Below are positions 2,611 through 54,598 of a stretch of DNA of 64,000 bases, piece by piece. The DNA is from Janthinobacterium lividum. GTDB taxonomy: Bacteria; Pseudomonadota; Gammaproteobacteria; Burkholderiales; Burkholderiaceae_D. Position 1 is the stretch's first letter. Each line of letters opens with the position of its first letter. The notes under the pieces are model-generated. The model did not search any database. It worked only from the letters and a program-made list of their open reading frames with translations, and was not told where the DNA came from. The position numbers and the translations under genes are program-made. The DNA lies in NCBI RefSeq assembly GCF_023509035.1, contig NZ_CP075583.1:3472001-3536000 (forward strand), given 5' to 3'.

Positions 2611-3420
2611 ATGCCATTTAAATACAACGCAGACGGAACCATTGCGATCGACGGCGAAAAGAAGCTGCCGATCTTCATTCATCCCAACGGGACCGAAGCG
2701 CCATTCGACGCGGATACCACGCTTGGCACGATCACCCGCCTGAACGGCGAGGCCAAGACGCACCGCGAGGGCAAGGAGGCCGCAGAGGCCAAGCTGAAGA
2801 GCTTTGAAGGCATCGAAGACGGCGTGGCTGCACTGGCTGCCCTGAATACGGTGAAGAGCCTCAGCTCCGGCGAACTGAAGACGGCTGCCCAGGTCAAGGA
2901 AATCCAAGATGCGGCAGCCAAGACCGCGCAAGAGCAGGTTGCCGCGCAGGCCAAGGCAAGCGCCACGCAACTGCAGGAATTGACTGCGCAGCTGGATAAA
3001 CGCACCAACGAATTGAACACCCACATGATCGGCGGCGGCTTCGCCAGCTCAAAGCTGCTGACCGACGACAAGCACCCAAGCCGCCTTGCGATCCCAACCG
3101 AGATGGCAAAAGCATATTTCGGCAGTCACTTTAAGGTCGAAGACGGCAAGATGGTGCCGTACGACGCCGCCGGCAACAAGATTTTCTCGCCGACCCGCCC
3201 GGGTGAGGTCGCTGATTTCGATGAAGGTTTGGCGCAGTTGGTACAAGCCTGCCCGTTTAAAGACCAAATCCTGAAGGGATCCGGCGCATCCGGCGGCGGC
3301 GCCCAAGGCGGAAATGGCGGCGGCGCAGGCGCCAAGCAAATTTCCCGCGCTCAATTTGAGGCGATGGGCGTCCAGGATCGCGCCGCAGCAATGAAAAGTG
3401 GCGTAACTGTCGCCGGTTAA
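2611..3420 (+). CDS. Phage scaffolding protein (DUF6651-like)
   Basis: A 269-aa protein directly upstream of the coat gene. The N-terminus is a compact beta-type region, MPFKYNADGTIAIDG onward; the centre (about residues 55-135) is a long charged, Ala/Gln/Lys-rich helix likely to form a coiled coil. The C-terminal part holds a globular segment (TDDKHPSRLAIPTEMAKAYFG) and then a Gly/Ser-rich linker (about 225-250). This layout and position fit the scaffolding proteins that template P22-type coat assembly and leave the capsid before DNA entry. The family name is from memory; the scaffold role is well supported by neighbour order. Confidence 0.75.
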   Translation: MPFKYNADGTIAIDGEKKLPIFIHPNGTEAPFDADTTLGTITRLNGEAKTHREGKEAAEAKLKSFEGIEDGVAALAALNTVKSLSSGELKTAAQVKEIQDAAAKTAQEQVAAQAKASATQLQELTAQLDKRTNELNTHMIGGGFASSKLLTDDKHPSRLAIPTEMAKAYFGSHFKVEDGKMVPYDAAGNKIFSPTRPGEVADFDEGLAQLVQACPFKDQILKGSGASGGGAQGGNGGGAGAKQISRAQFEAMGVQDRAAAMKSGVTVAG

Positions 3421-3536
3421 AAGTTCGCAATTCAGGGCGACGCCTTGACGTCCTGCACGTGCCTTTTCGATGGATGTCGGAAGGGTGCTTTGGGCTGGAT
3501 GGCCTCTCAGTTCTAAAACTCAAATCACCCCTCAAT

Positions 3537-3566
3537 GGCTCGCTTTCGCGGGCCTTCTTCATTTTT
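3537..3566 (+). terminator. Hairpin terminator before the coat gene
   Basis: GGCTCGC / GCGGGCC stem with a TTTC loop, followed by TTCTTCATTTTT. It lies within the 160-bp gap between scaffold and coat, 17 bp before the coat start codon. Confidence 0.6.
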
Positions 3567-3582
3567 GAAAGGCTTCACAACA

Positions 3583-4752
3583 ATGGGCACTCTTACCCTT
3601 AACGGCTTGCTGCCGACTATTTACAACGCGATGGAGGTAATCTCGCGCGAGCAGATCGGTATGATTCCAGCTGTATCGCGCGACTCCAATGCTGAGCGTG
3701 CGGCAATCAATGAAACCGTGCGGTCGCCATCCGTCGGCCCTATGGTCGCCGAAGATTTGACGCCAGGCGCTTATGCTCCCGATACGCCGAATCAGACCAT
3801 CAACTACGTTGACATGACGATCCAGAAGGCGCGCTCGGTGCCATTTGGCATCACGGGCGAAGAAAATCGCGGCTTGAACAACGCTGGCACGCTGGGCGAT
3901 ATCAACGCGCAGCGCATTACCCAGGCGCTGCGCACGCTGGGCAATGAAGTCGAGGCCGATCTGGCTGCGCTGCACATCTACGCCTCGCGCGCCTACGGTA
4001 CTGCCAACGTGACCCCGTTCGGCACGGCGGCCGATTTCACCGATTTCTCGAATCCGCTGCGCATCCTGGACGACAATGGCGCGCCACTGACCGACCGCCA
4101 AATGGTTCTGGGCTCGTCCGCGATCTCGAACATTCGCGGCAAGCAGTCCGGCCTGTTCAAGGCGAACGAAGCGAATAGCGATGAATTGCTGCGTCGCGGC
4201 ATCATCGGCCAGGTCGAAGGCTGGGACATCCACAACTCGGGCCAGATCCGCTCGCTGGTTCCTGCCGGCACTGCGGCTGCATCGACCACCAATGCTGCGG
4301 GCTATGCCGTCGGTGCCACGGTGATCAACCTGGCTGCTGCTGGTACCGGCGCCTACATCACGGGCGACATCGTGGCGTTCGCTGGCGATGCCGACAACAA
4401 GTACCTGCTGGCAGCTGGCGATGCTGACACCTCGAACGGCGGCACCATCGTGCTGGCCGAGCCGGGCCTGCGCAAGGCAATTGTCGGTGCCACCGCGATT
4501 ACTGTGATCGCGGCAACCACCCGCAACATGTTCTTCCACCGCTCGGCCATCCAGCTGGCTTGCCGCGCGCCGGCCATGCCGGATGAAGGCGACTCGGCCG
4601 ATGACGTGATGATGGTGACCGACCCGGTTTCCGGCATTACCTACGAGTTCTGCATCTACAAGCAGAAGCGCCAGGTCCGCTACGAGGTCAACCTGGCATG
4701 GGGTGTGAAAGCAGTGGCTCCACGCCACATGGGCATTCTGATCGGCGCGTAA
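3583..4752 (+). CDS. P22-type major coat protein (gene 5 family)
   Basis: The 389-aa product fits the P22 coat protein family. It begins MGTLTLNGLLPTIYNAMEVI and carries the family's conserved N-terminal run, SVGPMVAEDLTPG followed by IQKARSVPFGITGEEN. A central insertion rich in Ala/Gly/Thr (about residues 230-330) corresponds to the variable I-domain/beta region, and the protein ends in VNLAWGVKAVAPRHMGILIGA. The ATG at 3583 has the spacing expected from GAAAGG at 3567-3572; the longer in-frame reading from 3535 would begin inside the terminator hairpin. It is the HK97-fold shell subunit of this prophage. A P22-like capsid joined to a contractile tail is a mosaic combination. Confidence 0.88.
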   Translation: MGTLTLNGLLPTIYNAMEVISREQIGMIPAVSRDSNAERAAINETVRSPSVGPMVAEDLTPGAYAPDTPNQTINYVDMTIQKARSVPFGITGEENRGLNNAGTLGDINAQRITQALRTLGNEVEADLAALHIYASRAYGTANVTPFGTAADFTDFSNPLRILDDNGAPLTDRQMVLGSSAISNIRGKQSGLFKANEANSDELLRRGIIGQVEGWDIHNSGQIRSLVPAGTAAASTTNAAGYAVGATVINLAAAGTGAYITGDIVAFAGDADNKYLLAAGDADTSNGGTIVLAEPGLRKAIVGATAITVIAATTRNMFFHRSAIQLACRAPAMPDEGDSADDVMMVTDPVSGITYEFCIYKQKRQVRYEVNLAWGVKAVAPRHMGILIGA

Positions 4753-4777
4753 GCGTTGCTGGGCTAATCATCAACCT

Positions 4778-4808
4778 GGCCCGGCCAGCACTGCGGTGCT
4801 GCCGGGCC
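4778..4808 (+). terminator. Long GC hairpin after the coat gene
   Basis: GGCCCGGCCAGCAC pairs with GTGCTGCCGGGCC (one bulged C) around a short loop. No T tract follows, so it is more likely an mRNA-processing or stabilising stem after the highly expressed coat gene than a classical terminator. Confidence 0.5.
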
Positions 4809-4823
4809 TCACCTGACTTCACC

Positions 4824-5201
4824 ATGGATACCCTCAAAATCGTATCGACGGACCTGCGCACGCAGGGCCCTTTCGTCGTAATCAATAAATCCGACTTCAA
4901 CCCCGACGTGCACGAGCTGTACGGCGACCAGGACCTGGGCGCGCCCACCGAGCGCGCGCCGACCATGGCCGAACTGCTGGTCGCGCGCGATCAGCTCCTG
5001 GAGCGCGAGCGCTCACTGGACGCCGAGAAGGAGCGCATTGCCGCGCAGGAGCAGCGCCTGGCCGATCAAGCCCAGGCCAACGAAGTCGAAGCGCAGCGCC
5101 TGCGCGACGAAGCTGCAAGCCTGCAGGCTGCGAAAGATGCAGCTGCGGCCGCAACTCTTGCCACTTCGACCGAAAAGCCAGCAAAGGCTGCCAAGGCGTA
5201 A
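4824..5201 (+). CDS. Phage protein with long coiled-coil, unknown role
   Basis: A 125-aa protein that I cannot name. After ~45 ordinary residues (MDTLKIVSTDLRTQGPFVVI onward) it becomes a continuous charged helix, EAQRLRDEAASLQAAKDAAA and similar, from about residue 50 to 110, ending in a Lys/Ala tail. Proteins like this often sit between coat and head-tail adaptor genes of P22-coat phages and may be decoration or head-completion proteins. ATG 4824 follows the post-coat hairpin; a longer in-frame reading starting inside the coat gene at 4698 is rejected because it overlaps a well-conserved C-terminus. Confidence 0.6.
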   Translation: MDTLKIVSTDLRTQGPFVVINKSDFNPDVHELYGDQDLGAPTERAPTMAELLVARDQLLERERSLDAEKERIAAQEQRLADQAQANEVEAQRLRDEAASLQAAKDAAAAATLATSTEKPAKAAKA

Positions 5202-5251
5202 TCCCTGGCCAGCACCGCCCCGCACGCCGGGGCATTTACATCAGGACAAGA

Positions 5252-5335
5252 ATGCTCGTCATCGAAGCTGGCACCTGCATGTCGGACGCCGAATCATATG
5301 CTTGCGATGCCTGGGTGGACGCGCACCATACCTAA
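5252..5335 (+). pseudogene. 27-codon remnant of a head-tail connector gene
   Basis: A short reading frame, MLVIEAGTCMSDAESYACDA then WVDAHHT and a stop. It looks like the first ~27 residues of the neck/DnaT-like protein common in phages, which usually begins with an '(I)VEDGTG..ADSYVS..EADAYHA' pattern. The rest of that gene is absent: the next gene starts 12 nt downstream with its own AAGGGGAAG ribosome-binding site. Either this is a relic left by deletion, or it survives as a leader peptide. It is too short for standard gene finders. Confidence 0.45.
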
Positions 5336-5346
5336 AAAGGGGAAGT

Positions 5347-5751
5347 ATGTCTCTCACCACCGCGCAAATGGCTGACGTCAGGCGCTATATGGGCTATTCG
5401 CTCGTGGGCACGACCATGCAGATCGGGCCGAATCATGATGTGGTTTATGGTCGCTTCGGCATGACCTTGATGTCGCTGTACACGCGCCTTACGACGCTTA
5501 CGGCCGATGAGGAGGCTGTGCTGGTCAATACCTACCTCGCCAACCTTGGCCCGCTCGAAACGGCGATCTTCGGTGCCGGCGCGAATCTGGACACCGACCA
5601 GGCCGCGATCTGGACGCACAACAAGCGCGAGGTGGCTGATCGCACTTCACTATTCAACCAAGTGCGGCGCGCGCTGTGCGAATTCATTGGATTTCCGCCA
5701 GGCGGCAACCTCGGCACCGGCGGCAACTCCATCAAGCTGGTGAGAGCATGA
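5347..5751 (+). CDS. Phage head-tail adaptor region protein, unknown family
   Basis: A 134-aa protein starting MSLTTAQMADVRRYMGYSLV, preceded by AAAAGGGGAAG 1 nt upstream of the ATG region. It is mostly helical, with the conserved-looking segment LVNTYLANLGPLETAIFGAG and, near the C-terminus, RRALCEFIGFPPGGNLGTGG. Its place just after coat and a neck-gene remnant, before the tail genes, suggests a connector or head-closure protein. I cannot assign a named family. It overlaps the next gene by ATGA, so the two are probably translationally coupled. Confidence 0.6.
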   Translation: MSLTTAQMADVRRYMGYSLVGTTMQIGPNHDVVYGRFGMTLMSLYTRLTTLTADEEAVLVNTYLANLGPLETAIFGAGANLDTDQAAIWTHNKREVADRTSLFNQVRRALCEFIGFPPGGNLGTGGNSIKLVRA

Positions 5752-45239: not shown

Positions 45240-45299
45240 CACCTTCATCAGTTATCTGTTTGGCGTATTTCTATCATTCCAACAATCAATTGGATAGAT

Positions 45300-45387
45300 A
45301 TGCCGCGATGCAGCATAATGCATTTGTCTCCTCTATTCTCCTCCAAGAAAATAGATTCAGCCCGCTCCTTGTAGCGGGCTTTTTTTT
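45300..45387 (+). ncRNA. Anti-Shine-Dalgarno small RNA element, copy 1
   Basis: First of three copies of an ~88-bp element. Order: a short hairpin (ATGC..GC / GC..GCAT, 45,300-45,316), then TGTCTCC, then a second hairpin, TCTATT / AATAGA (45,332-45,337 and 45,350-45,355), whose loop is CTCCTCCAAGAA, that is, an anti-Shine-Dalgarno CTCCTCC (45,338-45,344). A strong terminator follows, AGCCCGCT / AGCGGGCT plus eight T residues. A promoter-like region (TATTTCTATCAT and GATATG) lies upstream. The prc terminator lies just before it, so it is an independent unit. Its end is 4 bp from the end of the convergent LysR gene. Confidence 0.6.
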
Positions 45388-45390
45388 GCC

Positions 45391-46317
45391 TCAGATTTTG
45401 TGCGTGGGCAGTTGCACGTCGGGCTGGGCAGCCAGCAGGGCAGTGATCCAGCCGGTAAACGCCTGCAGCTTGGGCGTGGCCAGCCGGCCTTGTGGCGTCA
45501 GCAGCGACATGGGCATCGGCGTCGGCGGGTGATCCGCCAGCACGGCCACCAGGGCGCCGCTGTCGAGGTGCTGGCGCACCTGGTACATGGCGGCCTGCGC
45601 CAGGCCCAGCCCTTGCAGCGCGCAATCGACGCTGGCGTCCGCATCGTTGACGGCGATGGGGCCGGCCATTTGCACGCGCACGACCTCCTTTCCTTGCAGG
45701 AAATCCCAATCGAAGGCGCGTCCCGTGCGGCCCGAGTAATGCATGATGCCCCGGTGCGCAGCCAGGTCGGCAAGGGTGTGCGGCGCGCCATGCTGCGCCA
45801 GGTAGGCGGGCGAGGCGCACGTGGCGAAGCGCATCAGGCCGACCTGCTTGCCGATGAAGGCGGAATCTTGCAAGGTGCCCACGCGCAAGGCGCAATCGAT
45901 GCCTTCCTGCGTCAAGTCGACCAGGCGGTCCGTCAGGCTCAGCTGCAGTTGCACGTCCGGATAGGCGGCGTGGAATTGCGCGATATGGGGCATGACGAGG
46001 CGCCGGCCTACCGTATTGGGCAGGTTGATGCGCAGCAAGCCGCGCGGTTTTTTCGCGTCCGGACCACGGAAGGCCAGTTCCGCCGTATCGACGGCCTTCA
46101 GGATATCGAGACAGTGGCGAAAGTACTCGGCCCCTTCCGGCGTCAGGGACAAACGGCGCGTGGTTCGCTGCAGCAATTGCGTGCCCAGGTAGGCTTCCAG
46201 CTTTTGCAGGGTGGCCGTCAGCGCGGCGCGCGGCAAATTCAATGTTTCGGCCGCCTTGGAAAAACTGTTGGCTTCAACGATGCGCACGAAGGTCTGCATG
46301 GCCTTGATCTTGTCCAT
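45391..46317 (-). CDS. LysR-family transcriptional regulator
   Basis: A 308-aa regulator. The N-terminal winged helix-turn-helix reads MDKIKAMQTFVRIVEANSFS then KAAETLNLPRAALTATLQKL (about 1-62); the rest is the substrate-binding effector domain, with RGLLRINLPNTVGRRLVMPH and DGALRVG-type sequence (CALRVGTLQDSAFIGKQVGL). It belongs to the group close to AaeR/DmlR-type regulators. Divergent to the MFS gene with a 106-bp spacer, so it probably controls that transporter in response to its substrate. Confidence 0.9.
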   Translation of the reverse strand: MDKIKAMQTFVRIVEANSFSKAAETLNLPRAALTATLQKLEAYLGTQLLQRTTRRLSLTPEGAEYFRHCLDILKAVDTAELAFRGPDAKKPRGLLRINLPNTVGRRLVMPHIAQFHAAYPDVQLQLSLTDRLVDLTQEGIDCALRVGTLQDSAFIGKQVGLMRFATCASPAYLAQHGAPHTLADLAAHRGIMHYSGRTGRAFDWDFLQGKEVVRVQMAGPIAVNDADASVDCALQGLGLAQAAMYQVRQHLDSGALVAVLADHPPTPMPMSLLTPQGRLATPKLQAFTGWITALLAAQPDVQLPTHKI

Positions 46318-46423
46318 CGTGATTGTTCATCTTATGTGAAAAGTGTAGGGGGATTATGCCCTAATTATCTTTGTCACAGTTTTGCCTAGAATGGTCGCAT
46401 CCCTACCGAACCGAGGAAACAAT

Positions 46424-47638
46424 ATGAACAAGGCCTCATCTTCTGCTCCCCACGACATTTCGCCCGCCATGGTGCTGCTGCTGGCCATCGCTTCCGGCCT
46501 GATCGTGGCCAATCTGTATTACGCGCAAACCCTCGTCGGGCCCATCAGCGCCTCGACGGGCCTGTCGGCCAAGGCTGCCGGGCTGATCGTCACCCTGACA
46601 CAAGTCGGCTATACCCTTGGCCTGCTGTTTGTCGTGCCCCTGGGCGACTTGCTGGAAAACCGCCGCCTGATCGTCACTGCCTTGCTGGTGACGGCCACGG
46701 CCCTGGTCGTGGCGGCCCTCTCCACGGGCGCCGTGGTGTTCCTGGCCGCCGCGCTGGCCATCGGCCTCGGGTCCGTGGCGGCGCAAGTGATCGTGCCGTT
46801 TGCCGCCCACCTGTCGCAGGAAGCGACGCGGGGACAGACGGTGGGCAAGGTGGTCAGCGGCTTGTTGCTGGGCATCATGCTGGCCCGCCCCGTGGCGTCG
46901 CTGGTGGCGGCCCACGCCAGCTGGCACGTGGTGTTTGGCGGCGCCGCCGTGCTGATGGTACTGCTGGCGCTGGTGCTGCGCCGCGCCTTGCCCGTGCGTC
47001 AGCCCGTGTCGAGCATGCGCTATCCGGCCCTGATGGCATCCTTGTGGCATTTGCTGCTGGGCACGCCCGTGCTGCGCCGCCGCGCCGCCTATCACGCTGG
47101 CCTGTTTGGCGCCTTCAGCCTGTTCTGGACCGTCACGCCGCTGGTGCTGTCCAGCCCCGCGTTCGGCCTGTCGCAAACGGGCATCGCCATCTTTGCCCTG
47201 GTGGGCATGGCGGGCGCCGTTGCCTCGCCCATCGCCGGCCGCCTGGCCGATGCAGGCCACACTTTGCCGGCCACGGCCGCCGCGCTGGCGCTGGGTATCG
47301 TCGCGTTTGCCTTGCCGATGTTTGCGCCGGAATCGAAACACGTGGCGCTGGGGTTGCTGGTGGTCGCCTCCATCGTGCTCGACATGGGCGTGGCGGCGAA
47401 CCTGGTGCTGGGCCAGCGCGCCATCTTCAGCCTGGGCGCGGAAGTGCGGGGTCGCCTGAACGGTCTGTATTTCGCCCTGTTCTTTGCCGGCGGCGCGGCC
47501 GGTTCGGCCATCGGCGCCTGGGTGTATGCCAGCTACGGCTGGCAAGCGACCTTGCTGACCGGCATGGCGTTTCCGGGCCTGGCCTTGCTGGTGTGGCTGG
47601 GAGAATTTTTGCCGCAGGCCACGCGCCGCACGGCTTGA
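46424..47638 (+). CDS. MFS transporter, probable drug or metabolite exporter
   Basis: A 404-aa transporter of the major facilitator type with 12 hydrophobic segments. The conserved loop between helices 2 and 3 reads TLGLLFVVPLGDLLENRRLI, and the second half starts with AAYHAGLFGAFSLFWTVTPL. This set resembles the YfnF/YgaY-type exporters next to a divergent LysR gene in many Proteobacteria. ATG 46,424 has GAGGAAAC upstream; the longer frame from 46,382 has none. Its substrate is unknown. Confidence 0.87.
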   Translation: MNKASSSAPHDISPAMVLLLAIASGLIVANLYYAQTLVGPISASTGLSAKAAGLIVTLTQVGYTLGLLFVVPLGDLLENRRLIVTALLVTATALVVAALSTGAVVFLAAALAIGLGSVAAQVIVPFAAHLSQEATRGQTVGKVVSGLLLGIMLARPVASLVAAHASWHVVFGGAAVLMVLLALVLRRALPVRQPVSSMRYPALMASLWHLLLGTPVLRRRAAYHAGLFGAFSLFWTVTPLVLSSPAFGLSQTGIAIFALVGMAGAVASPIAGRLADAGHTLPATAAALALGIVAFALPMFAPESKHVALGLLVVASIVLDMGVAANLVLGQRAIFSLGAEVRGRLNGLYFALFFAGGAAGSAIGAWVYASYGWQATLLTGMAFPGLALLVWLGEFLPQATRRTA

Positions 47639-47703
47639 AACCCTGATGGCGTCTCATTATCACTGACAGGAATTTCTATCATCATGAATATAAAGTGGCG
47701 TGA

Positions 47704-47791
47704 TATGCCGCGATGCCGCATCATGCACTTGTCTCCTCTATCTCCTCCAAGGAAATAGATTCAGCCCGCTCCCGCAGCGGGCTTTTTTTTT
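47704..47791 (+). ncRNA. Anti-Shine-Dalgarno small RNA element, copy 2
   Basis: Second copy, aligned over its whole length with the first: ATGCCGC-GATGCCGCAT hairpin, TGTCTCC, stem TCTAT / ATAGA (47,737-47,741 and 47,755-47,759) with loop CTCCTCCAAGGAA, and terminator AGCCCGCT / AGCGGGCT plus nine T residues. Upstream, TTTCTATCAT-N-ATGAATATAAAGTGG is shared with copy 3. It lies 65 bp after the MFS gene and ends 6 bp from a convergent gene. Confidence 0.6.
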
Positions 47792-47797
47792 GCCTGT

Positions 47798-48842
47798 TTA
47801 CTTGTGAGGCATGCGATCGGCATCGCAAAAGCCATAGCCTTGGGAGTTACCGCACCAGCCAGTTTCCTTGCGGGGTTCCGATAGCGGGTTGCAATGAACA
47901 GTGCGAAAATTTGTTGGGAAATATGATTTTAATATGTCGCTTGAGATGTTTCGAGTGGGAAATTTACTATGCTCTGGCGGCGTTGGGAACGTGGCCGCAA
48001 TGGCGCGATCCGATACATTTTCAATGAAGAGTACAGTTTCCTCTTCCCGGGCCTGGCACATGTGATTTTGGGTAAAGTCATATCTTTCAGCCGCTTTTAT
48101 CATGAAAAGTTGTCCTTTGTTTGATATGCCCTGGATCACGGCCAGCGCTGCTGAATAACTTCCTGTGAAGCCGGAAATGGAAATTATAAAGAAGAAGAAT
48201 ACCCGTTTTGCTTCTTTTTTGAAATCAAAAATAAATAAGAGGGAAAGAAAAATAAATTCAAATATGATTGCCAGTGCGGCAAAGGCAAAGGAGCTGAATG
48301 AGAAGGCAACTATCAGAGTGGCGAGTCCAAAAGACAAGGGCATGTAGGACGGAGGAAATGGAAAGTTGGCCGCAAAGAAGTCGACTGCGCTGAGGCGCGA
48401 AAAAAATAATACATGCGGAAACGACCAGCGAAAGCAGCACTTTTGCCAGCAGGCTTTTAAAAATAGAATTCAGGGATAGTAATACCCACGCGATCGCAAC
48501 TACGCCGCTCGCAAAAATGCCCGTCAGTGCCATCTGTATGAAAATGTAATTGACATAATCATCTGTTTCCTGAATGCGCAGATGCGATGCGAGAAAGGCG
48601 AAGCTTGTAGCTGTTGCAGTGAAAAAAATGGAAAGTAAGATGATGGTTTTTGGATTGGCGTATCTTGCGGCGATATTTTTGCCAAATTTTTCAATACCTG
48701 GATGTATTTTTTCTACGATTCTTCTTATGCAGGCCTTGTTTTCATGCAGCGCCATACAGATGAAAATAATTGCAAATGGCGGAGTGGTGAATAATGTCAT
48801 TAGCGAAAGAATTGTGATTGATATTATTTTGACTATTTTCAT
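47798..48842 (-). pseudogene. Multi-spanning membrane protein of unknown function, single-base frameshift
   Basis: Two overlapping minus-strand frames form one protein of about 347 aa. The N-terminal part has membrane helices (MKIVKIISITILSLMTLFTT, then TIILLSIFFTATATSFAFLA, and GVVAIAWVLLSLNSIFKSLL). After SACIIF the frame slips: removing one T from the T7 run (48,400-48,406, A on the plus strand) gives SRLSAVDFFAANFPFPPSYM and then PLSFGLATLIVAFSFSSFAF, FIISISGFTGSYSAALAVI. The C-terminal ~100 residues are polar. It is AT-rich relative to neighbours, which suggests acquired DNA. I cannot name a family. ATG 48,842 has AGGA 9 nt upstream. Confidence 0.6.
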
Positions 48843-49150
48843 TATTGTTATTTCCTGCATTTCAGCGGCGCCAGTGTTGGATGTTGGATGAGAAATTGCG
48901 ATGGAATATAGCACGCATTATTCCGCATGAGCTGGCTAGGCCAGTGCTTGAGTGGGGAATTTTATTTATCCGTACATTTTCTGGCGAGGGCGGGAGGGCG
49001 AGGAATAGTTCGCTGTGATTGTGGCGGAGAATGTGCGAACAGGGATGGGGGATAAATAATTCCACCCATCCACTATTTTTAGCTGCGACAGCAGCGCATG
49101 GGATTCAGCGTGCGTTCGTCGCCGGCGTACTATCGCTGGCGCTGCTATGC

Positions 49151-49834
49151 TTAAATTACCACCAGATCCAGCGCCCGCATGAAGTTCGCCGCCTGCGCAT
49201 GCGTGATGACGGCGCCCTTCAGCAGCGCCGCTTCGCTTAATTTGAAACCGTCGATATCGGCGCCGCGCAAGTCCGCGCCCTGGAACTTCGTTAGTTTGAT
49301 CGTGGCATTGCGCAGGCTGCCGCCTTCGAAGACGGCGTCGCGGAAGTCGCAGCCGGCCAGGTAGGCGTCGGAAAAATCGAGCTGTTTTAAGGTCGCCTTG
49401 CGGAAGGAAAAGCCGCGCAGGTCGGCGCCCACCAGCAGGCTGTCTTCGAAAGTGAGGCCAAGGTGGGCCACTTCCTCGAACGAGGCGCCCGTCAGCTTGC
49501 AGCCACGGTAGGTGGCCGAGGCCAGCTTGGCGCGCCGCCATTTCGTGTTGTTCAGGTCGCAGCCTTCAAACGTGGCATCGACGGCGTCGACGGATTCGAA
49601 ATCGGCGCTGCCCGCGCGGCAGCGGCGCCAGGTGCCGCGCGCCAGCTTACTGGCGAACAAGATGGTTTCGGCAAAGGTGCAGCGCTCGAAGGTGCAGCCT
49701 TGCAAATCGAGGCGCGACAAGTCTTCGCCGTCGAAGGCGCAATCGATGAAGTGGCGCACCTGCAGGGCCAGCTGCTGCTCGATGCCGGCGCGGTCCAGGG
49801 TCATGCCAGTTACTGCGGTGTCGTGTGTTGCCAT
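49151..49834 (-). CDS. Pentapeptide-repeat protein
   Basis: A 227-aa protein built largely of A(D/N)LXX-type five-residue repeats: DLSRLDLQGCTFERCTFAET, then DATFEGCDLNNTKWRRAKLA and so on (about 40-215), forming a right-handed quadrilateral beta helix. It has the DNA-mimic fold of Qnr/MfpA proteins, but repeat content alone does not show gyrase protection. The ATG at 49,834 has AGGA 9 nt upstream; an earlier Met at 49,843 is also possible. Single gene with its own promoter region. Confidence 0.85.
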   Translation of the reverse strand: MATHDTAVTGMTLDRAGIEQQLALQVRHFIDCAFDGEDLSRLDLQGCTFERCTFAETILFASKLARGTWRRCRAGSADFESVDAVDATFEGCDLNNTKWRRAKLASATYRGCKLTGASFEEVAHLGLTFEDSLLVGADLRGFSFRKATLKQLDFSDAYLAGCDFRDAVFEGGSLRNATIKLTKFQGADLRGADIDGFKLSEAALLKGAVITHAQAANFMRALDLVVI

Positions 49835-50141
49835 CCGTCTCATTCCTAAAGTGAAGCAGGGGAGGGATGGCGCGGCGGGAAAATGCACGAACCAGAACAC
49901 CTCCCCGGCTGGTGTAACAGCCAAGGGTCAGCGCCGTGGGTCCGCGTGGGCGGGAGCATGCCGGACGGTGCCGGGCACTTACCGGGTTACCAACCGGTGC
50001 GCTCATTTTCGATCAGCCTGCATTGTAACGGCTCTACAGCACCCTTGCCAGTGCTGGATAAAGCGGGTTAGTATCGTTGCAGGCGCACCCATTGCGCCAA
50101 CGTCGCTCGGACGGATCCGGGCGCTTACGTATAGAGATACC

Positions 50142-51358
50142 ATGACCGACAGCCAAGCTCCGCGCAGCTTTTCGCGCATCAATCGCCTTCCCCCTACGTC
50201 TTCAATATCACTGCCGAGCTCAAGATGGCTGCGCGCCGCCGTGGCGAGGACATCATCGACATGTCGATGGGTAATCCCGATGGCGCCACGCCGGCCCACA
50301 TCGTGGACAAGCTGGTCGAGACGGTGAAACGCCCCGACACGCACGGCTATTCCGCCTCCAAGGGCATTCCCCGGCTGCGCCGCGCGATTGCACACTGGTA
50401 CAAGAAACGCTACGAGGTCGACATCGACCCGGACAGCGAAGCCATCGTCACCATCGGTTCGAAAGAGGGACTGGCCCATTTGATGCTGGCAACACTCGAC
50501 CGTGGCGACACGGTGCTGGTGCCGAATCCCAGCTACCCCATCCATATCTGGGGCGCCGTGATCGCGGGCGCCGACATCCGCTCCGTGCGCATGGGCCCGG
50601 GCGTGGATTTCTTTGCGGAACTGGAACGGGCCATCCGCGAAAGCTACCCGAAACCGAAGATGATGGTGCTGGGCTTTCCATCCAACCCCACCGCGCAGTG
50701 CGTGGAACTGGAATTTTTCGAGCGCGTCGTGGCGCTGGCGAAGCAGCACAATATTTTGGTGGTGCATGACCTGGCGTATGCCGACATCACCTTCGATGGC
50801 TGGAAGGCGCCGTCCATCATGCAGGTGCCGGGCGCGCGCGACGTGGCCGTCGAATTCTTCACCATGTCGAAAAGTTACAACATGGCGGGCTGGCGCATCG
50901 GTTTCATGGTCGGCAATGCGGAACTGGTGGCGGCCCTGGCGCGCATCAAGAGCTACCACGACTATGGCAGTTTTACGCCCGTGCAAGTGGCGGCCATTGC
51001 AGCGCTGGAAGGCGACCAAAGCTGCGTGACGGAAATCTGCGCCCAGTACCAGCGCCGCCGCGACGTGCTGGTCAAAGGCTTGCATGAAGCGGGCTGGATG
51101 GTGGAAAAACCAAAGGCATCGATGTATATCTGGGCGCATATCCCGGAAGCGTATCGCCACCTGGGCTCGCTGGAATTTGCCAAGCTGCTGCTGCAAAAGG
51201 CCAAGGTGAGCGTCTCGCCCGGCATCGGCTTCGGCGAATACGGCGATGAGTACGTGCGCTTCGCCCTGATCGAAAACGAGGCCAGGGTGCGGCAAGCATT
51301 ACGCGGCATCAAGAATATGTTGCGTTCCGGCGAAGGGAAAACGGAAGCGGCAGTGTAA
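50142..51358 (+). pseudogene. alaC: AlaC-type aminotransferase, single-base frameshift near the 5' end
   Basis: A fold-type I PLP aminotransferase of about 405 aa. The conserved start reads [18 protein letters not shown], then needs one more C in the C5 run at 50,190-50,194 to continue as [10 protein letters not shown] and [20 protein letters not shown]. The rest (50,225 onward) is intact: PLP lysine in [19 protein letters not shown], aspartate in [14 protein letters not shown], and [16 protein letters not shown]. Family members make alanine from pyruvate with glutamate (AlaC). As sequenced, translation could only begin at internal ATG 50,225, which would lose the first 28 residues of the N-terminal arm. 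Confidence 0.87.
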
Positions 51359-51438
51359 AAGTTGCCGCATGGAATGACATGTTGCCCGCAATATCACTGC
51401 TGCGTATTTCTGACATCACGAATATAAAGTGGATTTAT

Positions 51439-51526
51439 ATGCTGCAACGCGGCATCATGCATCTGTCTCCTCTATCTTCCTCCAAGGAAATAGATTCAGC
51501 CCGCTCTCGCAGCGGGCTTTTTTTTT
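51439..51526 (+). ncRNA. Anti-Shine-Dalgarno small RNA element, copy 3
   Basis: Third copy. ATGCTGC-AAC-GCGGCAT hairpin, TGTCTCC, stem TCTAT / ATAGA with loop CTTCCTCCAAGGAA (CCTCC at 51,479-51,483), and terminator AGCCCGCT / AGCGGGCT plus nine T residues. The upstream sequence CTGACATCACGAATATAAAGTGG with TTATATGC is shared with copy 2. It lies about 80 bp after the aminotransferase gene and ends 27 bp from the convergent glpK. Confidence 0.6.
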
Positions 51527-51552: not shown

Positions 51553-53043
51553 CTATCCCCCGCCATTTCCCGTGAACCGCCGTACCGCGACCTCCCACTG
51601 CTGCATCCGGCCAGCCGCCTCGTCGCGTCCGATGCTGGGCAAAAACGTCCTGTCGGCGCGCCAGTGCGACGCCAGTTCCTCCACGCCACGGTACTGGCCG
51701 ATGGCCAGGCCCGCCAGGTAGGCTGCGCCCAGGGCTGTCGTTTCGATCACTTGCGGGCGCACCACGGAGATGCCCAGCAAGTCGGCCTGGAACTGCAGCA
51801 GCAGGTTGTTGGCGCAGGCACCGCCGTCGACGCGCAATTCCGTGATGGGCGCTTGTGCGTCGCGCGTCATGGCGCCCAGCAGGGCGGCGCTCTGGAAGGC
51901 GATCGCTTCGAGCGCCGCGCGGGCGATGTGGCCTACCGTGCTGCCGCGGCTCAGACCCAGGATGGCACCCTTGGCGGACGGCACCCAGTACGGTGCGCCA
52001 AGACCCGTAAACGAGGGCACGAAGACCACGCCGCCCGAGTCGGGCACGGAGGCGGCCAGGCCTTCCGCTTCTCCCGCGTGGCCGATGGCGCCCAGGCCGT
52101 CGCGCAGCCATTGCACTACGGCGCCGCCGATGAAGACGCTGCCTTCGAGCGCATACGCGGGCTGCGTGTCCACCTGACAGGCGGCCGTGCTGATCAGTCC
52201 ATGCTGCGATTGCGCGCACTGTTCGCCCGTATTCAGCAGCAAGAAGCAGCCCGTGCCGTAGGTATTCTTGGCCATGCCCGGTGTAAAACAGGTCTGGCCG
52301 AACAGCGCCGCCTGCTGGTCGCCGGCGATGCCGCCGATGATGACGGGGCTGCCCAGTACTTCCGCATCCGTTTCGCCATACACGTGGCTCGAGGGATGGA
52401 CGGACGGCAGCAGGCTGGCGGGAATGCCCAGCCAGTCCAGCAGCTGGGCATCCCAGCAGCCTTCATGCAGGTTCCACAGCATGGTGCGCGAAGCGTTGGT
52501 GACGTCGCTCACGTGCAGGCGGCCGCCCGTCATCTTCCAGGTCAGCCACGTATCGATGGTGCCGAAGGCCAGTTCGCCGCGCATGGCCCGCGCGCGCACG
52601 CCGGGCACGGCGTCGAGTATCCAGCGCAGCTTGGTGCCGGAAAAATACGGGTCGAGCACCAGGCCCGTCTTCGCGTGGATGGCGCCGGCCAGGCCGCGCA
52701 CGCGCAAGTCCTCGCACAGCGCTTCCGTGCGGCGGTCTTGCCAGACGATGGCGTTGTACACGGGTTCGCCCGTGGCGCGGTCCCATACCACGGTCGTTTC
52801 GCGCTGGTTGGTGATGCCCAGTGCACCGAGGGCATCGGCCTGCAAGCCCGCCTTGGCCAGCACTTCGCGGCAGGTATCGATCTGGCTACGCCAGATCTCC
52901 ATGGGATCGTGCTCGATCCAGCCCGGCTGCGGGAAGAGTTGGCGAAACTCGCGTTGCGCCACGGCAACGATGGCGCCTGATTCATCGAAGACCATGCTGC
53001 GCGAACTGGACGTGCCCTGGTCGAGGGCCAGCAAATACGTCAT
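51553..53043 (-). CDS. glpK: Glycerol kinase
   Basis: A 496-aa FGGY-family kinase making glycerol 3-phosphate. The N-terminus has [20 protein letters not shown] (DxGT phosphate-binding motif); glycerol contacts lie in [20 protein letters not shown] and [14 protein letters not shown]; the ATP part has [13 protein letters not shown] and [20 protein letters not shown]. It is the usual length for GlpK and lacks nothing visible. ATG 53,043 overlaps the glpD stop (ATGA), so glpD-glpK form one operon, glpD first. Confidence 0.94.
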
Positions 53044-54598
53044 GCCGCCACCTCTTGCACCAAATGGGTAGCCAGCCATTGCTGCAGGCGCGCCTCGTCA
53101 GCGGGCGCGCAGCGCAGGCCCAGCTTGCTGCGCCGCCACAGAATGTCGTCGCTGCTCCTGGCCCATTCCACCTCGGTCAGATAGCACGCTTCGGCTTCGT
53201 ACAGGCCGGGCGCCAGCTGCGCGCCCAGGTCGGCCATCGAGGTAGCGCCCGTCAGCAGGCGCGCGGCGCGGCTGCCATAGGCGCGCGCATAGCGGCGCGC
53301 CAGCGCTGGCGGCAGCCAGGCGTGGTCGCGCTGGAAGCGCGCGAGGAAGCCGTCGAAATCATGCCTGTCCACGAGTTGATTCGCCTGTTGCAAGTCGCCG
53401 CCAGGCAGCGGCGCGTGGGCCGTCCAGGCCGGGGCGCCATTCTCCAGCAGGGGCGCCAGCAGGCCCAGTGCTTCCTCGGCCAGCTTGCGGTAGGTGGTGA
53501 TCTTGCCGCCCCAGATATTGAGCAGCGGCGCGCCCGTCGCCGCGTCGCCGCGCGCCACTTCCAGCAGGTAGTCGCGCGTGACGGCCGACGCGTTCTGCGC
53601 GCTGTCGTCAAGCAGGGGGCGCACGCCGGAATATGTCCACACGACGTCGGCGGGGCCGATCTCGCGCTTGAAATAGCGGTTCGCCGCCTGGCACAGGTAA
53701 TCGATCTCCGCCTGGCTGATTTTGACCTTGCTCACTTCGCCCTTGTATTCCTCGTCGGTGGTGCCGATCAGGGTAAAGTCATTCTGGTAGGGGATGGCGA
53801 AGATGATGCGCTGGTCCGGGTTCTGGAAGATGTAGGCGTGCGGATGGTCGAACAGGCGCGGCACGATGATGTGACTGCCCTTGATCAGGCGCAGTCCTTG
53901 TGTCTTGCCGCCGCCGGCCGCGCCGGCAAACTGCGCCGTCCAGGGGCCCGCCGCATTGACGATGGCGCGCGCGCGCAAGGTCTTGCGCTGGCCATCCTCG
54001 GCTTGCAGGGTGGCGTGCCAGGCGTCGCCATCGCGGCGCGCATCGACGCAGGCCGTGCGCGTGAGGATGTGCGCGCCATGTTCCTGCGCATCGAGCGCGT
54101 TGAGCACCACCAGGCGCGCATCGTCGACCCAGCCGTCGGAGTACACGAAGCCCTTGCGGTAGCCGGCCTTCAGCGGCTCGCCTGCCGCATGGCGGTCCAG
54201 CGCGATGCCTTGCGAGGCGGGCAGGAAGGCCCGCTTGGCCAGGTGGTCGTACAGGAACAGGCCCGCGCGTATCATCCACGCGGGGCGCTGGGCGGCGTCG
54301 TGCGGCATGACGAAGCGCATCGGCCACATGATGTGGGGCGCGGCGCGCAGCAGCACTTCGCGTTCCTGCAGCGCCTTGCGCACCAGCTTGAATTCATAGT
54401 ATTCGAGGTAGCGCAGGCCGCCGTGTATCAGCTTGGTGGATGCGGACGAGGTGTGCTGCGCCAGGTCGTGCTGTTCGCACAGCACCACGCGCAGGCCGCG
54501 GCCGGCCGCGTCGCGCGCGATACCGGCGCCATTGATGCCGCCGCCGACGACCAGCAGGTCGCAGTCGGGGGCAGGGAGGAAAAGCGGAAAGCGGACAT
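53040..54598 (-). pseudogene. glpD: Glycerol-3-phosphate dehydrogenase, frameshift near the 5' end
   Basis: A 519-aa FAD enzyme of the inner membrane that oxidises glycerol 3-phosphate for the respiratory chain. The main frame is intact from VVLCEQHDLAQHTSSASTKL through AIVNAAGPWTAQFAGAAGGG to the end. Its N-terminal FAD loop lies in another frame. Reading MSAFRFSSLPP from ATG 54,598 and adding one base to the G5 run at 54,567-54,571 gives DCDLLVVGGGINGAGIARDA, the expected GxGxxG dinucleotide-binding motif. Without repair the enzyme would lack FAD binding. Together with GlpK it makes the glycerol-to-DHAP route. Confidence 0.9.

Follow-up and report, generated by a model that had tools for sequence, protein, structure and literature searches.

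Small RNAs of family RF02278 in Janthinobacterium lividum and their proposed place under the storage-polymer regulator PhaR

We have analyzed a stretch of 64,000 nucleotides from the genome of Janthinobacterium lividum (contig NZ_CP075583.1, positions 3,472,001 to 3,536,000, called here the window), in which three short related elements match the Rfam family RF02278, 'Betaproteobacteria toxic small RNA', across the full length of its model and are almost certainly members of it. Upstream of each lies a palindrome of the type bound by PhaR, a repressor that binds granules of polyhydroxybutyrate (PHB) and is called PhbF in Herbaspirillum, for which the consensus TG[N]TGC[N]3GCAA has been given (PMC3206438). 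In the order Burkholderiales the presence of such an operator in front of RF02278 genes follows the presence of PhaR, and from these sequence comparisons we consider control of the RNA family by PhaR to be well supported. Taken overall, the best explanation, held with moderate confidence, is that the RF02278 small RNAs (sRNAs) stand under a PhaR-type operator and act as a storage-linked brake on carbon intake. The window elements add new members to an established family, and the regulatory link to PhaR appears to be new.

Identity and extent of the small RNAs

A first reading made from the letters alone (the sequence-only reading) had pointed to three related elements here and had suggested a tie to a betaproteobacterial family of 'toxic' sRNAs with anti-Shine-Dalgarno (anti-SD) tracts. 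Both points hold. The elements are found where they had been placed, each with an internal hairpin, a CU-rich tract and a terminator followed by a T-run, and the family is RF02278, whose gathering cut-off of 50 bits was exceeded by all three (64.1, 61.6 and 59.9 bits; E-values from 1.9e-11 to 2.1e-10) in a cmscan search against Rfam. Other Rfam matches (Trp leader, anti-hemB and mmgR) were all below cut-off and were rejected. Since the RF02278 model starts at TGTCTCC, the RNA genes are delimited as given in Table 1, with left ends that sit 25-26 nt inside those proposed before.

A promoter search around copy 1 returned a single match, ending at 45319 (shuffled sequences give a mean of 0.4 such matches), so the RNA of this copy would start near 45325. 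CATAAT or CATCAT is found in the window copies at the same place as the -10 box of another copy of the same genome, at 2189822, whose promoter TTGCAC-17 bp-TATAGT ends five bases 5' of TGTCTCC. As the -10-like boxes and the promoter match end before TGTCTCC, the inverted repeat at the left end of the elements lies in the promoter, and we infer that it is DNA overlapping the -10 box and outside the RNA. The window sRNAs are predicted to be ~61-63 nt long, each with its own promoter and terminator. The relatives of Burkholderia cenocepacia, with starts determined by differential RNA sequencing, are reported to be 57-67 nt long, except ncS27, with 92 nt, which can be processed to a similarly short form; an upstream motif is common to three of these four members (PMC5688073).

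The operator and PhaR across the Burkholderiales

In Herbaspirillum, PhbF has been footprinted with DNase and represses phaP1 and its own gene (PMC3206438). In Sinorhizobium meliloti the PhaR palindrome is WNWDDNYGCRNYGCRNHHWNW, with six flanking positions per side of the core YGCRNYGCR; it is found in the promoter region of mmgR, an sRNA gene bound and repressed by PhaR (PMC12542648). We searched the 160 bases upstream of 119 RF02278 copies of the order, among the matches listed, all of them outside the family of J. lividum (Burkholderiaceae_D), whose promoters were excluded. A genome was scored as lacking PhaR when PF07879 was not found, some of the genomes being incomplete. The core was present upstream of 72 of the 81 copies in genomes with PhaR versus one of the 38 in genomes without it; counted by genome, the values were 63/67 versus 1/29. 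The exact Herbaspirillum-type motif gave 46/81 versus 2/38. The only genome with the core and no PhaR match is 85% complete, and a member of the same family does have PhaR.

Family membership, scrambled motifs, background and shuffles were controlled on the first 108 of the 119 listed copies, in which the commonest placement of the core is with TTGC on the -35 box. Shared ancestry inflates the order-wide counts, and the contrast within families answers part of this: in the four families that have both states, the core was found in 16/19 copies with PhaR versus 1/8 without, and cells of family by PhaR state contained it in 17/17 versus 1/10 cases. Five scrambled palindromes were found in only 1-5 of 77 copies with PhaR and 0-2 of 31 without. 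Shuffled upstreams had the core in 2.4-3.0%, and background windows elsewhere in 29 loci had it in 67/404 (4/404 for the exact motif). As a control, phasin loci of 30 genomes of Burkholderiaceae_D were analyzed (one per genome, the best-scoring among those listed), and all 30 carry TTGCNNNGCANMA or its reverse form upstream.

The RNA S17 of Bordetella pertussis, homologous to RF02278 according to its authors, has a -35 box TTGCAT, a spacer of 17 bp and a -10 box TACTAT (PMC11722255). This mapped -35 box forms the left half of a PhaR-type operator. When 84,980 species, each represented by one genome, were scanned with TTGCATNGCACAA-N10-TACTAT, 40 stretches were obtained, 36 of them with an RF02278-type RNA 86-190 bases downstream; the four misses were in records labelled Clostridium, Azoarcus, Thaumarchaeota and Prevotella. 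The pattern had been built from two S17-like loci plus the published boxes and was therefore bound to find that group, the scan being informative on the rarity of other finds. In Achromobacter and Bordetella, RF02278 RNAs are preceded by the S17 boxes together with the operator extension. A spacing of 129 bases in Bordetella hinzii predicts a long form of ~190 nt; for S17 itself, forms of 190 and 67 nt are reported, and repression in one growth mode has been postulated (PMC11722255).

The putative operator in the window copies

In the window copies the palindrome falls on the -10 box. The full 21-position S. meliloti consensus is matched exactly in copies 1 and 3 and with one mismatch in copy 2, while shuffled promoters reach these levels in 0.035% and 1.1% of cases. 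At that same place, 31 of 57 distinct copies of the genus match exactly and 21 more have one mismatch, although these are paralogues and orthologues and do not represent independent events. The repeat had been read as an RNA hairpin in the sequence-only reading; the repeat is real and fits a putative PhaR-type operator, which had been missed. The genome has one PhaR match (PF07879, at G000:C1:3600065), and among the places with an exact full consensus one is 175-195 bases before the start of the PhaR domain and another ~130 bases from a phasin domain. A further exact match, at 4184 in the window, is inside a phage-like open reading frame (ORF) and is probably due to chance.

Across Burkholderiaceae_D, an operator followed by TGTCTCC at 20-50 bases was found in 55 of 145 genomes and at 51-81 bases in 51, versus 4 for the backward pattern at either spacing. 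Not all of these matches are sRNA promoters and some are plainly chance. All eight genomes of the genus in the draw had a match with the short spacing.

Farther upstream, a module with GTTAT at -74, ATTTC and AATTGG is common to the multi-copy promoters of the genus, all copies other than L008 sharing it, and a similar one is present in 19 copies from other genera of the family, with TATACT as the -10 box.

Table 1. Features of the three RF02278 copies in the window (positions from its first base)
Feature	Position	Strand	Basis or remark
sRNA, copy 1	45325-45387	+	~63 nt; cmscan 64.1 bits
sRNA, copy 2	47730-47790	+	~61 nt; cmscan 59.9 bits
sRNA, copy 3	51464-51525	+	~62 nt; cmscan 61.6 bits
PhaR-type palindrome on -10 box, copy 1	45298-45318	.	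exact match to 21-position S. meliloti consensus
PhaR-type palindrome, copy 2	47703-47723	.	one mismatch to the same consensus
PhaR-type palindrome, copy 3	51437-51457	.	exact match to the same consensus
Promoter-like TGGATA-17-CATAAT, copy 1	45291-45319	+	9/12 matches
Upstream module (GTTAT, ATTTC, AATTGG), copy 1	45251-45291 (-74 to -34)	+	conservation in 56 same-genus copies
Upstream module, copy 2	47656-47696	+	by register
Upstream module, copy 3	51390-51430	+	by register
5' UCUCC tract, copies 1, 2, 3	45327-45331, 47732-47736, 51466-51470	+	predicted single-stranded
Hairpin CCUCC tract, copies 1, 2, 3	45340-45344, 47744-47748, 51479-51483	+	predicted fold
Terminator stem and T-run, copy 1	45359-45387	+	RF02278 match; sequence

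Points against PhaR control, and rival explanations

Several results weigh against PhaR control, some for the window copies and some for the RNA family as a whole. The genome has 56 exact places of the full S. meliloti consensus versus 51 for the backward control, so that consensus alone is not specific. With a matrix trained on phasin sites, the window copies do not reach the strength of the phasin-gene sites, scoring 4.7, 4.8 and -1.5 (shuffle p of 0.12, 0.07 and 0.43) versus 17.6 for the copy at 2189822. The multi-copy promoters of Burkholderiaceae_D are often without the core, in 23 of 33 rows (L039-L068, L094; three rows are nested duplicates). Phasin mRNAs, tried as preferred targets of the RNAs, were not supported as such, their pairing at 29 phasin starts not differing from that at 107 control starts (p 0.45). 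Besides, related genomes are not independent. In the 300 genomes of the order, the co-occurrence of RF02278 and PhaR is weak (138/203 genomes with PhaR versus 50/97 without; p 0.007), and the 50 genomes with the RNA and no PhaR, together with the 65 of 203 PhaR-bearing genomes that gave no RF02278 match, indicate that the tie is not obligate. Given the non-specific consensus and the poor matrix scores, we rate PhaR control of the three window copies as plausible and not as shown, with chances only a little better than even.

The same weak scores, and the strong conservation of the module between -74 and -34, would fit a different arrangement, in which an activator on that module drives the window copies, the -10 palindrome once bound PhaR and has decayed, or else serves a different regulator, and PhaR still acts on the ancestral-type copy G000:C1:2189822 alone. 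It would also fit that this latter copy carries the canonical operator on its -35 box, as do matches in all eight genomes of the genus in the draw. We regard this arrangement as a tentative possibility, one that has to account for two facts: in 52 of 57 distinct same-genus copies the palindrome persists at this position with no more than one mismatch to the PhaR consensus, and a copy of a sister genus (L094) has a canonical site there. A more general objection is that the association of operator and PhaR reflects shared ancestry and base composition, the motif being that of some other regulator or simply part of the promoter. Indeed, genomes without PhaR are confined to few families, their upstreams are more AT-rich (GC 0.402 versus 0.472) and TTGC overlaps the -35 box. 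However, the contrast persists within the four families that include genomes of either state, shuffling the upstreams yields comparable frequencies in both groups (3.0% and 2.4%), the motif recurs at every phasin locus analyzed, and both consensus sequences derive from PhaR targets (PMC3206438, PMC12542648), all of which makes this explanation unlikely.

It seems very improbable that the transcript is the 88-nt RNA of the sequence-only reading, with the 5' hairpin (ATGCnGC/GCnGCAT) inside it. The inverted repeat exists, yet among the three 88-nt versions only that at 51439 is predicted to fold into the proposed hairpin. The end of the promoter match at 45319, the 57-67 nt of the mapped relatives (PMC5688073) and the match of the repeat to a DNA operator all argue against this length.

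RNA structure and anti-SD tracts

The window copies have the architecture of RF02278, with two hairpins, the second one being the terminator, and a first stem that covaries. RNAalifold returned no structure for 85 aligned RF02278 sequences, and the stem pairs were therefore counted directly, using 171 distinct sequences out of 172. One pair of the first stem was T-A in 53, C-G in 117 and T-G in one of them; another was a standard pair in 160/171, with T-A, C-G, T-G and A-T all occurring. The anti-SD stem, for which covariation had been proposed as a check, does covary.

The CCUCC tract in the hairpin, singled out by the sequence-only reading as an anti-SD loop, is present and partly unpaired, but in the predicted fold it is mostly open only in copy 1 and largely paired in copies 2 and 3. 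The 5' UCUCC tract has an unpaired probability of 0.99-1.0 in all three copies. The loop would thus be the weaker of two anti-SD tracts.

Copy number and distribution

The three elements are not the whole set. The genome gave nine RF02278 matches at E-values up to 0.001, seven above the cut-off (the ninth, with 33.4 bits, is doubtful), and five of the copies lie within 29 kb on one strand. All 40 genomes of the genus that were searched, this one included, have the RNA, with 3 to 12 matches each. It was found in 134 of 145 genomes of Burkholderiaceae_D, with up to 21 matches per genome (G132 being among the genomes concerned), and in 188 of 300 genomes of the order. For Burkholderia, 3-5 RNAs of this type per genome have been reported (PMC5688073).

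Within Burkholderiaceae_D all 129 genomes with PhaR have RF02278, versus 5 of 16 without PhaR (Fisher 4e-13, kinship ignored). The 11 genomes that lack both span three genera, and four of the five with the RNA and no PhaR match have a completeness of 68-87%. Both losses could stem from genome reduction, but the sRNA persists in genomes of 2.2-2.6 Mb in which PhaR is retained (G081, G067 and G051, the last with a weak match).

Proposed role and comparison with known systems

The model that we favor would work as follows. PhaR would keep the sRNA gene off through the operator on the -10 box. Under carbon excess PHB granules would form and PhaR would be drawn onto the polymer, as reported elsewhere, where PhaR represses and is sequestered by PHB (PMC12542648), so that the RNA would be made. 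Its UCUCC and CCUCC tracts would pair with Shine-Dalgarno sequences and slow translation, probably mainly of genes for uptake and catabolism of carbon compounds and amino acids, the choice of targets and the physiology being inferred. The RNA would then be a brake on carbon intake during storage, the betaproteobacterial counterpart of the alphaproteobacterial MmgR. In B. cenocepacia, three tested RF02278 members were reported to reach 4.3- to 8-fold higher levels when grown in glucose medium, and overexpression of ncS27 to attenuate growth. In its widest form, which we think somewhat more probable than not to be correct, the proposal is that the 'toxic' betaproteobacterial sRNAs, including Bordetella S17 and the double-hairpin RNAs of Burkholderia, act as the riboregulatory branch of the switch by which PhaR responds to the storage polymer, in which PHB frees the sRNA to shut carbon intake, a job shared with MmgR; the operator would be gone where PhaR is absent, and in the genus of the window the RNA would have multiplied into a cluster with the operator on the -10 box.

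The closest known RNAs are the RF02278 members ncS03, ncS05, ncS27 and ncS62 of B. cenocepacia and Hsnc059, 063, 086 and 107 of Herbaspirillum seropedicae, which the window copies resemble in sequence and structure over the whole model, in the two hairpins, in the CU-rich anti-SD tracts and in having several copies per genome. Members of the family are reported to be toxic when cloned in E. coli. What sets the window genome apart is the clustering of five copies within 29 kb, together with a PhaR-type palindrome that overlaps the -10 box. S17 differs in that a 190-nt precursor is cut to 67 nt, whereas the window copies are predicted to start directly at TGTCTCC. MmgR of S. meliloti (alpha-r8, RF00519) is described as a short RNA that depends on Hfq and presents an anti-SD loop; PhaR (AniA) has a site in its promoter and represses it. 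Activation by NtrC and a lowering of phasin synthesis are further traits of MmgR. The window copies do not match its family (21 bits versus a cut-off of 41, in one copy only), and the T-run after the terminator is the only feature relevant to Hfq that was observed in them. NmsR of Neisseria meningitidis also has CU-rich anti-SD tracts and has been drawn as a parallel to the double-hairpin RNAs; it is described as a tandem pair acting on genes of the tricarboxylic acid cycle (PMC5688073).

In the literature searched we found no link between RF02278 and PhaR, nor PhaR-sRNA work on RF02278; Sass 2019 (on ncS27) and Kimelman 2012 were outside that scope and may hold relevant promoter work. In the text available of PMC5688073 the regulator behind the accumulation of the Burkholderia sRNAs is given as unknown, and in that of PMC11722255 a repressor of S17 is postulated and none is named. 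If true, the PhaR link would give much of an order one testable answer as to the regulator, would agree with both the glucose-medium induction and the attenuated growth, and would mean that carbon storage controls translation as well as transcription.

Genomic context of the window copies

The minus-strand ORFs beside copies 1, 2 and 3 end at 45391, 47798 and 51553, at the short distances that had been claimed. Convergent placement as a general trait of the RNA family was not borne out: copies so placed were 15/27 in the genus, 7/38 in the family and 1/27 in the order, the baseline being 68 convergent cases among 215 neighboring gene pairs of these loci. In the genome analyzed they were 3/8 by script, plus a fourth (47730) from the ORF ends, and two of the four B. 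cenocepacia copies are reported as convergent.

Beside copy 2, at 47798-48914, two ORFs of the minus strand overlap each other; their base composition is unusual and they have no Pfam match. Beyond copy 3, at 51553-54488, a gene pair encodes a glycerol-kinase-type carbohydrate kinase and a flavin adenine dinucleotide (FAD) enzyme of glycerol-phosphate oxidase type. For the Burkholderia RNAs, the predicted targets include glycerol kinase (PMC5688073), and the neighborhood of copy 3 may be a coincidence. The reading frame of the aminotransferase ORF (50225-51358) appears to start before it, at 50142-50225 and in a different frame, a possible frameshift or sequencing error. Finally, ORFs at 2611-5751 resemble phage structural genes by eye.

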